Assembly: GCF_007859955.1 (NCBI RefSeq)
Contig: NZ_SJPR01000001.1
Span: 1,059,590 to 1,123,589, forward strand
Origin: Botrimarina colliarenosi
GTDB lineage: Bacteria > Planctomycetota > Planctomycetia > Pirellulales > Lacipirellulaceae
Length of the DNA stretch: 64,000 nt
Direction: 5' to 3'
The notes beneath the pieces are model-generated. The model ran no database searches, had not been told where the DNA came from, and saw nothing but the letters and a program-made list of their open reading frames with translations. Position numbers and translations under genes: made by a program. Each line of letters begins with the position of its first letter. Position 1 is the stretch's first letter. Positions 13,036 through 19,527 of the stretch are shown in pieces.

Positions 13036-15102
13036 TCACTCGGCGAGCCGGACCCGGATAACGGACAGCGAGTGCGGGGGCGCTTCGTAGTCGAAATCCT
13101 CGGCAACTTCTAACGGAGAAGAAGTCGGCGTCATCGGTGACTCGGCGCTTCGACCTCGGGCCATTGGGTCCTGCGGGTTCGATGTCATGGGATCGCCGGT
13201 CAGCACGTGCACCGTTGCGGAAGACGCGGTTGCGGGCGACTCGGTTGCGGGCGTCTTGGGAGAGTAGCCGTCGGGCAGAGCGATCTGCGTAGCGCACGCC
13301 TTGTCGGTGGTGTTAACCAGCTTGACGATGAGGACACGGTTCTCCGAGTCAAGGACCGTCGAGGCGAACACGCCGGTGGCGCCGTCGCCGGGCTCGCCGT
13401 CGTTGACGCGCGTCGTGAAGGACTGGTCGCCGCTGTTCCGACTAAAGAGCTGCTGCACGTAGTAGTTGACCGTGGGGTACACGCCGGCTTCGTCGAAGTA
13501 GATGAGGTCGGGGGTCCACTGGGTGTGGCCACGTCTCGCTAGCAGCGGCGCGTAAGAGGCAAGCCGCACGATGTCGGCGTTGCGCTCGAGGTGCGTTAAG
13601 TAGGCCGCCTCGGCGAGCGCGCTGCGGAGCGTCGCCTGTCGGCCATGGTCGTGGGCCGCGTACTCGCCCAGGTAGACCTGGGACTTGTCTCGGTCGTACC
13701 CGTCGTACCGCTGCGTGTTCTCCAGAAACCACTCCGGCGAGCGGTAGTAGTGCTCGTCCACCATGTCGACGCCGAGCGCGTCGGCGATCCGCCAGCCTTC
13801 CTCGTAATCCGGTCCCTCGGAGGAGGGCCCGACGGTTCCGATCAGCGTGATCTCGGGGTGCTTCGCTTCAATCGCTTCGTGGAGGATCTCGAAGCGCTTG
13901 CGGAAGACCGGGGTGATGTGGTCCTCGTTGCCGACGCCCAGGTACTCCAGATTGAACGGCTCGGGGTGACCCGCTGCGGCGCGCTTCGATCCCCACTCCG
14001 AATCGGCGGGGCCGTTCGCCCACTCGATGAGGTCCAGCACCTCTTGGACATAAGCGGGCATGTCCGTCAGCGGCAGGCCCTCTTGCCCCCGTCCGCCGGT
14101 GACGCCGGAGTTCTGGCAGCTCACCGCCGCGGGGACGACCGGCAGCGGCTTCGCGCCGATGTCTTCGCAGAACTGGAAGTACTCGAAGTAGCCGAGTCCC
14201 ATGGTCTGGTGATAACCCCAGATGTTGAGTTGGGCGCGGCGATGCTCGATCGGGCCGATCGTGTCCTTCCAGCGATACATGTTGGCGAGCCCGTTGCCGT
14301 GCACCAGGCAACCGCCCGGGAAGCGGACAAACTTGGGCTCGAGCGCCTCGATCGATTCGGCCAGGTCGTTGCGGAGGCCGTTCGGGCGATCGCGGAACGT
14401 GTCCTGCGGGAAGAGAGAGACCATATCGAGGGCGATCCCCCCCTGCTCGTGAGCGAGGAGCACGAACCGCGCGCGGGGCTCGGATTTGTCGGCGGTGATC
14501 CCGCCCTCGAGGCGGCGCCAGTCGCTGCCCGAGTACTTGAGTTCTGTCTCGCCGAGATTCGCGCCGTCGGGTCCCTCGAGTCGCGCGGTGAGGGTGAACG
14601 ACTTGTCGTCGGGGATGGGCCCGCCGCCCCAGCGTCGCTCGACGTAGAGCTGACGGACGAAGAGCGACACGTTGTACTTCTTGCCAGCTACGACGGGGAC
14701 GCCATCGAAGCCGGGGTTGCGCACACCGACCCCCTCACCCACGTTATCGACATTCAGCACAGCGTACGTCGGATTGTTGGGGTGCAGAGGTCGCCCGGCG
14801 TCGAGGCCGAGCGAGCCTTTGCCGCCCCCTAATTGGACCACTTCCCAAAAAGAGAGGGGGTTCCAACTGAGTTGCTCGAGGGCCGAGTAGTCGAACGAGC
14901 GGTTCTGGATCAACTCCGCGTACAGTCCGCCGTCGGCCGCATAGTTGATGTCCTCGAAGAAGACTCCGACTAGGTCCGTGCTAATGGGCTTTGGCGGCCC
15001 CTCGATCTTGATCGCTAACGGGGCGGATGTTTGCGCCGTGGCGATGAGGGGCAAGCCGAACAAGCAGGCGAAAAGGCCGGTGGAGCGAAGAGAGCTATGC
15101 AT
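13036..15102 (-). CDS. Secreted alpha-L-arabinofuranosidase, glycoside hydrolase family 51
   Basis: 688 residues with a signal peptide (LFACLFGLPLIATAQT). It removes terminal arabinofuranosyl residues from arabinoxylan or pectin side chains. An N-terminal carbohydrate-binding-like beta region (about 30-220) precedes the catalytic barrel. The acid/base glutamate is in LGVGNED (about residue 393) and the nucleophile glutamate in VYLGEY (about 480). A C-terminal beta domain typical of GH51 follows, interrupted by a Pro/Ser/Thr/Ala-rich insert near residues 620-665 that looks like low-complexity sequence. No other plant-polysaccharide genes are adjacent. It is divergent from the radical SAM operon. 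Confidence 0.93.
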   Translation of the reverse strand: MHSSLRSTGLFACLFGLPLIATAQTSAPLAIKIEGPPKPISTDLVGVFFEDINYAADGGLYAELIQNRSFDYSALEQLSWNPLSFWEVVQLGGGKGSLGLDAGRPLHPNNPTYAVLNVDNVGEGVGVRNPGFDGVPVVAGKKYNVSLFVRQLYVERRWGGGPIPDDKSFTLTARLEGPDGANLGETELKYSGSDWRRLEGGITADKSEPRARFVLLAHEQGGIALDMVSLFPQDTFRDRPNGLRNDLAESIEALEPKFVRFPGGCLVHGNGLANMYRWKDTIGPIEHRRAQLNIWGYHQTMGLGYFEYFQFCEDIGAKPLPVVPAAVSCQNSGVTGGRGQEGLPLTDMPAYVQEVLDLIEWANGPADSEWGSKRAAAGHPEPFNLEYLGVGNEDHITPVFRKRFEILHEAIEAKHPEITLIGTVGPSSEGPDYEEGWRIADALGVDMVDEHYYRSPEWFLENTQRYDGYDRDKSQVYLGEYAAHDHGRQATLRSALAEAAYLTHLERNADIVRLASYAPLLARRGHTQWTPDLIYFDEAGVYPTVNYYVQQLFSRNSGDQSFTTRVNDGEPGDGATGVFASTVLDSENRVLIVKLVNTTDKACATQIALPDGYSPKTPATESPATASSATVHVLTGDPMTSNPQDPMARGRSAESPMTPTSSPLEVAEDFDYEAPPHSLSVIRVRLAE

Positions 15103-15413: not shown

Positions 15414-15722
15414 ATGACCGATCCTGCTGATCCGACAGAGCCCACAAGGAGCGGGCGTGTGCACGACAAGGCTGACCGCTTCGGACGCGGACTGCTCTTC
15501 GCCCTGCTCGTGTTGGTCTCGCCTGTCGCGGTGTTCTTGTGCGGATTCTGCAGCTGCTTGGGGGTGGTGGGAGGGGGGCTCCCGGGCGAGGTCGCTTGGG
15601 CGGCATTTTGGGTGGGCTTGCTTGTTGGATTGTTTGTTGCTGTGCTGCTCTTGATCCGCGCGTATAAGTGGTTGTTCGTCGTTGAACCGATCCTGATGGA
15701 AGACGTCCGGACCGATGATTGA
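15414..15722 (+). CDS. Small two-helix membrane protein coupled to radical SAM gene
   Basis: 102 residues. After a charged N-terminus (about 25 residues) come two hydrophobic helices: LLFALLVLVSPVAVFLCG with CSC, and AAFWVGLLVGLFVAVLLLIRAY. A short acidic tail follows. No family recognised. It is supported by its 8-bp overlap with the next gene (the stop TGA lies within the next gene's first codons), which implies translational coupling. The start is the ATG of MTDPADP; a TTG two codons earlier is possible. The ribosome site is weak. It may anchor or partner the radical SAM enzyme. Confidence 0.7.
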   Translation: MTDPADPTEPTRSGRVHDKADRFGRGLLFALLVLVSPVAVFLCGFCSCLGVVGGGLPGEVAWAAFWVGLLVGLFVAVLLLIRAYKWLFVVEPILMEDVRTDD

Positions 15723-17283
15723 GCCACTCCGCGCCAGCGACCATGCTTTTCTCGGCCTGACGCAGAGCCTCTGCCCCGAGTGCTTAGAGGTGGTGCCCGC
15801 GAAGATTATCCATCGCGCGGGACGCGTTTACTTCCGCAAGCGTTGCAAGACGCACGGGACGCGCGAAGACTTCGTTTCGGGCGACGCGGCGTGGTTTGAT
15901 CGCCACGTCGGTAACAACATCGGCAAGACGCCGCATCGCAGGGCGATCGAGCCGCGGCGGGGATGCCCCTACGACTGCGGCCTGTGCACCGAACACGAAC
16001 AGCACACGTGCCTCGCCCTATTGGAGATCACTAGTTCTTGCAACTTGACCTGTCCGATGTGCTTCGCTTCGAGCGCGCCGGGGGGACAGCATCTTTCGCT
16101 CGAACAATGCCGCCGCGCGATCGACGCCCTCGTCGAGGCCGAAGGGCGCCCCGAGGTGCTGCAGCTTTCCGGGGGCGAGCCGACGGTTCATCCCGAGTTG
16201 CTCCCGATCGTTGATTACGCCCGCGATCAGCCGATCGATATCGTGATGATCAATACGAACGGCGTCCGGCTGGCCAAGGATCGGCGGCTTCTCGAAGACC
16301 TCGCCGCCCGCCGCGACCGGCTGGAGATTTACCTCCAGATGGACGGCTTCAACGACGAGGTCTATCGACAGCTACGCGGCGAAGAACTGCTGGAGACGAA
16401 GCTGGCCGCCATCGAGGCGTGTGGCGAGGTGGGCCTCAACATGACGCTGGTCGCCATGCTGCAGGCGGGCGTCAACTTTGGCGGGGGGGAGGTCGGCGAG
16501 CTGATCGACTTTGCCGCCGCGCGGCCGTGGGTGACCGGCGTCAGCTTCCAGCCGGCGACTTACGCGGGTCGGTACTTCTTGCCGGCCGAGCTAGAGAACC
16601 GCGTCACGCTGCCCGATGTGATCCACGCCGCCGAGCGGGAGACCGCCGGCCGCTTCCGTGAGAGCGACTTCACCCCGCTGCCGTGCGCTCACCCCAACGC
16701 CCATGCGATCGCCTACGCCTATCGGTCGGGTGACCGCGTCACGCCGCTGGCGAGGCTGATCGATCTAGGCGAGCACATCGACTTGCTTTCCGGCAGGATC
16801 ACCTACACCCGTCCACGGGCCAAGGAACTGATCCAGGAGTACCTCAGCCGCCAGTGCTGTGGTCCCGGCGGGTGTGGACCGACGGGCTGCGACCCAGTTG
16901 CTCCGTCGCCAGTTGTTCCGTCGCCAGTTGCTCCGTTGCCGGTGACGCTGGGGGCCAGCCTGCCCGTGCTCGAAGCGACGCCGAAAGCCGACGACGGCTT
17001 GGCGGCGATTGGGCTGGAGTTCGTTGAGCGGGCGATGGCCGAGCGGCTCGATCCGCGCGATGTCTTCCGCGTGACGATCACCAGCTTCATGGACGCTTAC
17101 AATTTCGACTTGCGGCAACTGATGCAATCGTGCGTCGCGTTTGCGTTGCCGACAGGCCACCTGATCCCGTTCTCGGCCTACAACGTGTTGTATCGCGAAG
17201 GGCACGCACCGCTGCCGCCAATCACACCGCGCACGCCAATCACTCCGTCGGCCGATCTCGTTCTGCTAAGGTCGGGTCGATGA
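15715..17283 (+). CDS. Radical SAM enzyme of the tetraether lipid synthase (Tes)-like family
   Basis: 522 residues. The cysteine layout is that of archaeal Tes (MJ0619-like): an N-terminal CPECLEVVPA with a partner cysteine in KRCKTHG (rubredoxin-like metal site), GCPYDCGLC, and the radical SAM motif CNLTCPMC preceded by LALLEITSS. LSGGEPTVHPE is the SAM-binding GGE-type segment. Tes couples lipid tails by C-C bond formation between sp3 carbons. Bacterial relatives are mostly uncharacterised. Residues about 382-410 hold an added Cys/Gly cluster (CCGPGGCGPTGC) and a repeated VAPSP linker built on a 15-base tandem unit. The gene overlaps both its neighbours, a small membrane protein and an Lgt-like protein, forming a single operon that points to lipid chemistry. 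Confidence 0.85.
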   Translation: MIEPLRASDHAFLGLTQSLCPECLEVVPAKIIHRAGRVYFRKRCKTHGTREDFVSGDAAWFDRHVGNNIGKTPHRRAIEPRRGCPYDCGLCTEHEQHTCLALLEITSSCNLTCPMCFASSAPGGQHLSLEQCRRAIDALVEAEGRPEVLQLSGGEPTVHPELLPIVDYARDQPIDIVMINTNGVRLAKDRRLLEDLAARRDRLEIYLQMDGFNDEVYRQLRGEELLETKLAAIEACGEVGLNMTLVAMLQAGVNFGGGEVGELIDFAAARPWVTGVSFQPATYAGRYFLPAELENRVTLPDVIHAAERETAGRFRESDFTPLPCAHPNAHAIAYAYRSGDRVTPLARLIDLGEHIDLLSGRITYTRPRAKELIQEYLSRQCCGPGGCGPTGCDPVAPSPVVPSPVAPLPVTLGASLPVLEATPKADDGLAAIGLEFVERAMAERLDPRDVFRVTITSFMDAYNFDLRQLMQSCVAFALPTGHLIPFSAYNVLYREGHAPLPPITPRTPITPSADLVLLRSGR

Positions 17284-17996
17284 TCGACCCCGTCTACACG
17301 CTCATCATGGCGGCGGCGGTGCTCGCCGGTGGGTTGATGCTCCGCCGCAGCCAGCGGTCGCTGCCGATCGACAAGGCCGACCGCTTGGCGATCGGCGTCG
17401 CTGCCTTCTGCGGCGCGATGCTCGGCTCCAAGGCGCCGTTCGTGCTGGCGGGTGACGCCGCTTGGTGGTCAGCGCCGGCTTGGCTCGCCAATGGCAAGAC
17501 GATCCTCGCCGGCCTCGTCGGCGGTTACTTGGCGGTCGAGTTGGCCAAGTGGGCTCTGGCGATTCGCACCAAGACCGGCGACTCGTTCGCGCCGGCGGTG
17601 GCGGTCGCCGTGGCGATCGGCCGACTCGGCTGCTTCCGCGCCGGGTGCTGCTACGGGGCGCCGACCGACGCTCCCTGGGGGGTCGTCTTTCCGCACGAGG
17701 ACCAGCTGCCGCGTCACCCGACTCAGCTTTATGAGGCAGGCTTCCACGCAGTGATGGCGATCGTGCTCATCACGCTGCAGCGGAGCGGCCGGTTCCGCGG
17801 CCAGTTGCTGAAGCTCTACATCATGAGCTATGCCCTCTACCGGTTGGCGACCGAGACGATTCGGCCCGAGCCGACCTACTTCGCGGGGCTGACCGCCTAC
17901 CAAGCGGCCTGCTTGCTGCTCTTGCCGTTGTTCGCCTTCCTCTGGTGGCGCGACGCCCGCAATATCCCCTCGCCGGACGCGGGCCCGGCGTCTTAG
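17280..17996 (+). CDS. Lgt-like (prolipoprotein diacylglyceryl transferase-related) membrane protein
   Basis: 238 residues with about six to seven membrane helices. It carries GRLGCFRAGCCYG and RHPTQLYEAGF, which match the GRLGNF and RHPSQLYE signatures of Lgt, the enzyme that transfers diacylglycerol from phosphatidylglycerol to lipoproteins. Downstream YALYRLATETIRP keeps the Tyr and Arg equivalent to E. coli Y235 and R239. In place of the FHGGLIG loop there is ILAGLVGG, so the essential His103 appears to be Leu. The protein is also short for Lgt. Its ATG overlaps the stop of the radical SAM gene (ATGA), so the two are translationally coupled. It is probably not the housekeeping Lgt. Confidence 0.85.
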   Translation: MIDPVYTLIMAAAVLAGGLMLRRSQRSLPIDKADRLAIGVAAFCGAMLGSKAPFVLAGDAAWWSAPAWLANGKTILAGLVGGYLAVELAKWALAIRTKTGDSFAPAVAVAVAIGRLGCFRAGCCYGAPTDAPWGVVFPHEDQLPRHPTQLYEAGFHAVMAIVLITLQRSGRFRGQLLKLYIMSYALYRLATETIRPEPTYFAGLTAYQAACLLLLPLFAFLWWRDARNIPSPDAGPAS

Positions 17997-18048: not shown

Positions 18049-19527
18049 TCATGCGAACTCGCCCGCGTCGGATTCCGGTTCGACCAGCTTCGGCTCGATA
18101 ACGCGCATCGAACGCCAGCTGCCGTTCAAGAAGCGGAGCAAGAAGACCATGCCGATCGTGCCGACCCACGCCGAGATGACCCCCCAGCAGCCGTACAGGC
18201 CGGCGTGGGCGACATCCACCATCAGCCAGGTAAGCAACCCGAGCGCGAGGGCCATTACGAGGCTCGTCAGCAGGATGAACCGCGTATCGCCGGCGCCCTT
18301 TAGCGCGCTGACGAAGACGATCGCCATCGCGTCGAGGAAGTTGTAGGCCGCGACGAAGCGGAGCAGCACCAAGGCGGTCGACTCGACGGCGGCGCGCGTC
18401 GTGAGGTCGCCCGACATCGGTTCGCCGGCGAAGAACCCGCTGAGGAACAGCTGCGGGAAGAAGACGAGCCCGATCGAAACGAGCGCCATGTAGGCCCAAC
18501 TGACGTGCAACGCGGTCCAGGTCGCTTGGGCGGCGACGCGGTCGCGGTCCTCGCCCAGGTGCTGGCCCACCAGGATGCTCACCGCCAAGCCGATGCCGAA
18601 GACCGGCATGAACGCTAGCGAACTGATGCTGAAGGTGAGACTGGTCGCCTCGTTCTCGACCGAGCCGAGCCGGCCGACCAGCACGACGAAGACGGTGAAG
18701 CCGAGCACGTCGAGCAGCATCTGCACGCCGGCCGGGCCGCCGAAGTAGAGCAATCGACGGAAGAGTTTCACGTCGAAAATGGCGTGTCCCGTGCCGAACT
18801 CGGCCCGGTAACGTGGCAGGACAAAGATCAGCAAGTAGGTCGCTGCTTTCAGCCATGTGGCGGTGACGGTCGCCCAGCCGGCGCCGGCGATTCCCCAGGC
18901 GGGGAACACCTCGAGGGTCTCGTCGCCCCAGGCGACGGTGAGGCCGAAGATCCACCACCAGTCGAGCAGCACGTTGAGGATCGCGAACACGCTGTCAACG
19001 ATCATCACCACGACGGTCTTTCCGCGGCCGCTGTAGAACGACGACAGCGACTGCGCGAGCAGCATGCCCGGCGCGCCGTAGCAGAGGATCGCGAAGTAGC
19101 GCCCCTCCAGTTCGACGTCGGAAGGGGCGTGCCCCGCCGCGAGGAAGATCGCATCGGCAAAGGGGATCGCCGCCAGCAGGAAGGGACTCGCCGCGAGCGC
19201 GAACCAGACGCCTTGCCAGACGGCGGGGCCGATGCGACGCGGCTGCGCCGAGCCGTGGTACTGGGCGACGAAGGTCGACGTGTACGAGCAAATGCCGAGG
19301 GGCAGACAGAGCGCGGCGAACCAGATCATCGACGCGACGAACGCCGCCGCCATCGCCGCCCCCGACCAGTGGTTGAGGAACATCCGGTCGACGAACGTCA
19401 TGACCGTCCACGATAGGCTCGACACGACCAGCGGCGCGGCGACCGACAGCACCTCGCGGCCGCCGCCGGGGCGGGACCACCAACCGGTGGGGGAGAGCGT
19501 CTCGTTGGCGGTGTTCGTTTCGGACAA
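18049..19527 (-). CDS. MATE-family multidrug/toxin extrusion transporter
   Basis: 492 residues with about twelve hydrophobic segments in two similar halves, as expected of MATE cation-coupled efflux pumps. Typical features include APLVVSSLSWTVMTFVDRMFLNHWSG at the start of repeat 1 and FGIGLAVSILVGQHLGE at the start of repeat 2. The first 25 residues are a soluble tail and the C-terminus ends in a short acidic tail. The substrate is unknown. It is convergent with the Lgt-like gene, with 52 bp between stops. Confidence 0.92.
   Translation of the reverse strand: MSETNTANETLSPTGWWSRPGGGREVLSVAAPLVVSSLSWTVMTFVDRMFLNHWSGAAMAAAFVASMIWFAALCLPLGICSYTSTFVAQYHGSAQPRRIGPAVWQGVWFALAASPFLLAAIPFADAIFLAAGHAPSDVELEGRYFAILCYGAPGMLLAQSLSSFYSGRGKTVVVMIVDSVFAILNVLLDWWWIFGLTVAWGDETLEVFPAWGIAGAGWATVTATWLKAATYLLIFVLPRYRAEFGTGHAIFDVKLFRRLLYFGGPAGVQMLLDVLGFTVFVVLVGRLGSVENEATSLTFSISSLAFMPVFGIGLAVSILVGQHLGEDRDRVAAQATWTALHVSWAYMALVSIGLVFFPQLFLSGFFAGEPMSGDLTTRAAVESTALVLLRFVAAYNFLDAMAIVFVSALKGAGDTRFILLTSLVMALALGLLTWLMVDVAHAGLYGCWGVISAWVGTIGMVFLLRFLNGSWRSMRVIEPKLVEPESDAGEFA

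Follow-up and report, generated by a model that had tools for sequence, protein, structure and literature searches.

In Botrimarina colliarenosi, a gene for a radical SAM protein with the fold of tetraether lipid synthase (Tes) overlaps a gene for a second, non-canonical Lgt-like membrane protein (here Lgt2), and in the genomes tested the two are obligate partners. The pair is widely conserved and apparently undescribed. Because each gene is found only with the other, the two proteins probably act together to make or modify a membrane lipid. Tes is an archaeal enzyme that fuses membrane-lipid tails through C-C bonds; Lgt attaches lipid to proteins, taking diacylglycerol from phosphatidylglycerol (PG), and its known acceptor is a cysteine. 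What is new here is the strength of the pairing between the radical SAM gene and the second lgt copy. In the literature searched, whose coverage leaves out most subscription journals, we found no description of this pair, of TrsS function, or of the neighborhoods of bacterial Tes genes.

The radical SAM gene and a second lgt copy occur together

Three overlapping open reading frames on the + strand occupy positions 15414 to 17996 of the window, the 64,000-nucleotide stretch of DNA that was analyzed. Their coordinates (Table 1) bear out the originally described 8-bp overlap between the first two genes and ATGA overlap between the radical SAM and Lgt-like genes. The flanking genes, encoding an arabinofuranosidase (13036 to 15102) and a MatE transporter (18049 to 19527), both lie on the opposite strand, indicating that the trio is a self-contained unit and supporting its description as one operon. 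An Rfam search of the locus gave no match, a promoter scan of the locus found none, and terminator-like sites there were not clearly above shuffled sequence. The radical SAM gene is present in single copy in its own genome.

Table 1. Coordinates of genes and residues of interest in the window
Feature	Position	Strand	Basis or remark
Small membrane protein, 102 aa	15414..15722	+	Two predicted TM helices; 8-bp overlap with next gene
Tes/TrsS-superfamily radical SAM protein (P0002), 522 aa	15715..17283	+	PF04055, PF23545; 7tol E = 7.6e-70; model Z 49.6 to 7tom
Rubredoxin-like site C20-X2-C23-X20-C44-X2-H47	15772..15855	+	Motif and spacing as in Tes
N-terminal auxiliary [Fe4S4] site C84, C88, C91 and His94	15964..15996	+	Opens family signature HEQH(S/T)C
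Radical SAM cluster motif C109-X3-C113-X2-C116	16039..16062	+	Sequence motif
Ala329, position of Tes Cys338 (inferred [Fe4S4]C ligand, lost)	16699..16701	+	Alignment
Cys381-Cys382, family-specific CC motif	16855..16860	+	Absent from Tes
Thr456, position of Tes labile ligand Met439	17080..17082	+	Alignment
Ser472, position of Tes Cys455 (inferred [Fe4S4]C ligand, lost)	17128..17130	+	Adjoining Cys473 family-invariant
Ser487, position of Tes Cys470 (inferred [Fe4S4]C ligand, lost)	17173..17175	+	Alignment
Non-canonical Lgt-like membrane protein (Lgt2), 238 aa	17280..17996	+	PF01790 E = 1.9e-35; pLDDT 94, Z 15.1 to 5azb
Leu76, position of essential His103 of E. coli Lgt	17505..17507	+	Alignment; essentiality from PMC4728403
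Arg115, equivalent to Arg143 of E. coli Lgt	17622..17624	+	Invariant in 63/63 paired proteins
Arg188, equivalent to Arg239 of E. coli Lgt	17841..17843	+	Invariant in 63/63 paired proteins

Co-occurrence was scored in 61 genomes of the same order (60 relatives and the genome itself). A second PF01790 copy was present in 20/20 genomes that carry the radical SAM gene but in 0/41 that lack it, split Lgt hits in G003, G031, G040, G049, G052, G053, and G058 being counted as one gene each, which is an assumption for the fragmented genomes G049 and G031. The corresponding Fisher P value is 1.6e-16; the statistic ignores relatedness, but four genera hold both states. In G006, G019, and G051, the two genes lie on different contigs or far apart and are still both present, indicating that adjacency is not the cause of their co-occurrence. 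The result was the same in a Bacteroidota family: of 61 genomes, three gave a strong match to the radical SAM protein, and only those three gave one to Lgt2 (3/3 versus 0/58).

Across 80 named loci from many phyla, some of whose records are metagenome-assembled genomes (MAGs) that may be misbinned, the two genes lie within 300 bp of each other in 52 and within 5 kb in 63. Lgt2 is upstream in 25 and downstream in 27 of the close loci; it is downstream in Pirellulales and mostly upstream elsewhere. Clustering of the genes neighboring the named loci revealed no third universal partner outside Pirellulales. Neighborhoods of unlinked Lgt2 genes shared no partner except clu3, a 6-TM protein. Its gene lies near an unlinked Lgt2 in one genome, and other genomes have it upstream of the radical SAM gene. 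At three deep-branching loci (L153:4992-8167, L154:867-5968, and L166:4992-8198), genes for an ICMT/PEMT-like methyltransferase and a DUF4395-like protein lie between the radical SAM gene and Lgt2. In Chloroflexota/Bacillota relatives (L149, L151, L156, L165, and L175), the radical SAM gene is followed by a SAM-dependent methyltransferase gene, with no Lgt2. Ktedonosporobacter and a Firmicutes MAG each have an ArsP-like permease gene beside the pair (L148:6547-7476 and L159:7112-8026).

The neighborhood survey called for in the original prediction thus found the radical SAM/Lgt pair kept in related and distant genomes, but a detectable homologue of the two-helix protein (P0001) only in a same-genus genome (L032 in G001; 50% identity). 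The predicted helices of P0001 span residues ~27 to 45 and ~63 to 81, the first containing a CGFC motif. A protein with 2 to 5 TM helices is encoded directly upstream of the radical SAM gene at 40/51 Pirellulales loci, compared with 11/144 control starts (8%) taken from the same loci, and many of these proteins carry CxxC. The small upstream gene is a real, fast-evolving Pirellulales neighbor; a membrane protein is common at that position, but the anchor role once proposed for it gained no support. In one Pirellulales genome, several related small membrane proteins are encoded in a row upstream of the radical SAM gene (L034:10199-14137).

Fold, family placement, and metal sites of the radical SAM protein

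By sequence-based matching, the closest solved structure is MJ0619/Tes (7tol), at an E value far beyond chance (Table 1). An AlphaFold2 model (mean pLDDT of 87.5) superimposed on 7TOM at 3.0 Å over 429 residues; the next other protein reached a Z score of only 20.7, and the peptide maturases SuiB and SkfB were among the next fold matches. A profile search identified the PF04055 and PF23545 domains. The description of a Tes-like radical SAM enzyme is borne out by these matches.

Family models and phylogeny place the protein outside Tes itself. It scored 272.7 bits on the Tes model NF045702 (cutoff, 450 bits) and 333.9 bits, its best NCBIfam score, on the TrsS model NF045646 (cutoff, 490 bits); relatives scored 273 to 388 bits on the latter, and all tested members fell below the cutoff. 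NCBI models would therefore name the protein neither Tes nor TrsS, and we rejected both names. A quick maximum-likelihood analysis of 90 proteins, with MJ0619 and the planctomycete Tes proteins L052 and L053 on the Tes side, placed a branch of 2.06 substitutions (SH-aLRT of 100) between the protein's clade and Tes. Several family marks are absent from Tes. They are the signature HEQH(S/T/G)C after the N-terminal site, whose final Cys99 is invariant in the family, the likewise invariant Cys324 and Cys473, and a CC motif, which stands in the context CCGPGGC in the window copy and LLCCLP in most other phyla and adjoins a low-confidence loop of the model.

Three of the four Tes metal sites are kept. 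The rubredoxin-like site has the CX2CX20CX2H spacing reported for Tes (C9X2C12X20C33X2H36; PMC9433317), the N-terminal auxiliary site of three cysteines and a histidine is found as GC84PYDC88GLC91 with His94, and the radical SAM site retains CX3CX2C. The alignment also showed that the SAM-contact residues Arg210 and Gln268 and the loop residue Arg275 of Tes are kept.

The fourth site is different. According to the Tes structure study, tails are coupled via a lipid bound to sulfur of the C-terminal [Fe4S4] cluster ([Fe4S4]C), Met439 is a labile ligand of this cluster, and the variants M439A and Y459F are still active (PMC9433317). We assigned C338, C455, and C470 as [Fe4S4]C ligands from conservation, not from the paper's text, because they are the only unassigned MJ0619 cysteines conserved in true planctomycete Tes. 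In the window copy all three positions, as well as that of Met439, are occupied by other residues (Table 1), so the "full cysteine pattern" of Tes attributed to this protein fails at the fourth site. All three C-terminal cysteines are kept in 16/23 Pirellulales relatives; most Lgt-linked members from other phyla have Ala, Cys, or Ser at 338, Ser or Thr at 455, and Asp or Glu at 470. Explaining these states takes three or more changes along the tree. Given its scores below the cutoffs, the long branch, and the loss of the inferred fourth-site cysteines, the protein is, judged from its sequence, Tes-fold but not Tes. Structure prediction and alignment to MJ0619 thus upheld the predicted fold and three metal sites, but not the fourth-site cysteines or membership in the Tes family.

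These residues bear on whether the product of the pair is a lipid that spans the membrane or has cross-linked tails, with the radical SAM protein coupling tails as Tes does and Lgt2 supplying or moving a diacylglyceryl unit. The fold match extends over the whole protein, many Pirellulales relatives retain the cysteines, and bacterial Tes homologues, including those of Planctomycetota, have been proposed to act in brGDGT synthesis, although this is unproven (PMC8941075, PMC11868695). Since the M439A and Y459F variants are active, differences at those two positions alone mean little and would not by themselves stop the reaction. However, the inferred [Fe4S4]C ligands are missing from the window copy and from most Bacteroidota, Bacillota, and other copies; moreover, both NCBIfam scores are below cutoff, and no multidomain ester reductase of the Ger/PlsA type was seen in the same genome. 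We therefore give Tes-type cross-linking lower weight for the window copy and consider it unlikely.

Lgt2 and the probable role of the pair

Lgt2 matched PF01790 with 122.8 bits (cutoff, 24.9 bits), and its model is far closer to E. coli Lgt (5AZB) than to the next match (Z score of 6.6), in agreement with its original identification as Lgt-like. On the equivalog model TIGR00544 it scored 72.7 bits, below the 118.9-bit cutoff. Arg143, Glu202, Tyr235, and Arg239 (E. coli Lgt numbering) are kept in 63/63 paired Lgt2 proteins, and the window copy accordingly has both catalytic arginines. His103 and Glu151 are essential for lipobox transfer in E. coli Lgt (PMC4728403). None of the 63 paired proteins has His at position 103, where Leu, Val, Met, Ile, Ala, Glu, or Thr is found instead, and none has Glu at position 151 (Cys in the window copy). 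In Lgt2, N146 and N149 are also replaced. Because His103 and Glu151 are lost, ordinary diacylglyceryl transfer to lipoproteins by Lgt2 appears doubtful.

A separate Lgt is encoded besides Lgt2 in the genomes examined, including that of B. colliarenosi. The separate planctomycete Lgt has Tyr at position 103 and Cys at position 151, so such losses alone leave lipoprotein activity possible in planctomycetes, and loss of His103 alone is weakened as a mark of a non-lipoprotein Lgt2, given that the planctomycete housekeeping enzyme also lacks it. In the B. colliarenosi protein (L193; G000:C3:104752-105732), this Tyr is accompanied by a GCCYG motif, and the other planctomycete Lgts examined have both features.

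If Lgt2 instead placed diacylglycerol on the cysteine of a small protein that the radical SAM enzyme also modifies, the Cys-containing membrane proteins encoded upstream would be candidate substrates. Cysteine is the known Lgt acceptor, small membrane proteins of this kind are enriched at that position in Pirellulales, and SuiB and SkfB are among the fold matches. We nevertheless rate such a peptide pathway as rather improbable: no such small gene is conserved beside the pair outside Pirellulales, the two residues essential for lipobox transfer are lost in 63/63 proteins, no peptide maturation genes were seen nearby, and the match to Tes is far stronger than that to the peptide maturases. Weaker still is the case for a TrsS-type enzyme (an NCBIfam seleno/Cys family) whose chemistry would involve redox reactions, metalloids, or cofactors and whose membrane partner Lgt2 would serve a different function, since the best-scoring model (334 bits), the methyltransferase pairing in Chloroflexota/Bacillota relatives, and the ArsP-like permease at two loci are set against scores uniformly under the cutoff, a methyltransferase confined to five loci without Lgt2, and the lipid-binding fold of Lgt2.

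Characterized members of the Tes and Lgt folds act on glycerolipids. With two lipid-acting folds, obligate partnership, and a retained PG pocket in Lgt2, a module for lipid modification explains the findings most economically, and with moderate confidence we favor a bacterial module of two enzymes for the synthesis or modification of a membrane glycerolipid. The lipid role foreseen for the operon thus remains the best inference from both folds, while Tes-type coupling is weakened by the lost cluster ligands. In this module, the radical SAM enzyme, on the cytoplasmic face, would accommodate the tail of a lipid in a hydrophobic pocket like that of Tes, where its 5′-deoxyadenosyl radical would activate a C-H bond. 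The window copy probably would not use Tes two-step coupling over the [Fe4S4]C cluster; a single C-H functionalization, or chemistry at a replacement site formed by Cys324, Cys473, and the CC motif, is more likely. Lgt2 would bind PG in the pocket of Arg143, Glu202, Tyr235, and Arg239 and pass a diacylglyceryl group on to some acceptor that is not a lipobox cysteine. The two-helix protein may be a fast-evolving accessory in Pirellulales.

Several points count against a lipid module. No lipid synthesis genes flank the pair, radical SAM folds have been reused for peptides and cofactors, and the family is separated from Tes by a long branch. With the inferred [Fe4S4]C ligands lost, substrate and reaction could both have changed. 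Cultured Bacteroidota and Paenibacillus carry members, and we know of no matching lipid reported from them. A more ambitious form of the lipid module, which we hold only tentatively and consider unlikely, is a widespread, undescribed bacterial pathway in which a cytoplasmic Tes-fold enzyme and a repurposed, periplasm-opening Lgt act on one lipid, yielding a new ether- or thioether-linked or membrane-spanning glycerolipid. Members are present in the common aerobic genera Flavobacterium, Pedobacter, Paenibacillus, and Lacipirellula and in MAGs of other phyla.

Genome and environmental surveys have counted bacterial Tes homologues as potential for tetraether lipids (PMC8941075, PMC11868695). The present family, with members in Planctomycetota and Bacteroidota, is distinct from Tes. 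It is accompanied by a second Lgt, and the inferred ligands of the coupling cluster are often missing; lipid biomarker inference could be misled if the family were scored as Tes. The two-gene unit is now named in culturable bacteria, making deletion and lipidome analysis a direct test, and the family provides a natural series of enzymes, some with the C-terminal cluster ligands retained and others with them lost.

Comparison with known systems

The Mss/Ger pathway for brGDGTs resembles the present pair, by the published description of Mss, in its proposed bacterial tail coupling, and Mss models are said to share Tes architecture (PMC13274423). It differs in the Ger-type multidomain protein: the B. 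colliarenosi genome yielded none of the Ger/PlsA ester reductase type and only a single PF01869 match, in a 350-aa frame, and a Ger-type ether lipid route there is not supported. TrsS gives the best NCBIfam score and has the radical SAM core and some of the C-terminal region in common with the window protein, but the window protein scores below the TrsS cutoff, P0002 has no in-frame stop, and its partner gene is Lgt2.

Tes itself (GDGT-MAS; MJ0619, 7TOL/7TOM) is alike in fold, rubredoxin-like site, N-terminal cluster with its His, radical SAM motif, and SAM contacts. The two are only ~30% identical; on top of the low Tes score and long branch, Tes lacks the HEQH(S/T)C signature and CC motif, and the window protein lacks Met439 and the inferred [Fe4S4]C ligands. 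Archaeal-type Tes proteins above the NCBIfam cutoff (577 bits) are encoded in two Planctomycetota (L052, G114:C58:17840-19297; L053, G092:C142:26924-28399), and, unlike the genes of the window family, these true planctomycete Tes genes have no adjoining Lgt2. As a separate observation, the Planctomycetota genomes G203, G078, and G249 contain 6 to 7 Tes-like radical SAM matches each, an unusual expansion.

Compared with E. coli Lgt (5AZB), Lgt2 is a second copy, falls below the TIGR00544 cutoff, and has replacements at H103, N146, N149, and E151, but it has the same fold and the same PG/diacylglycerol pocket residues, R143, E202, Y235, R239, E243, and R246.
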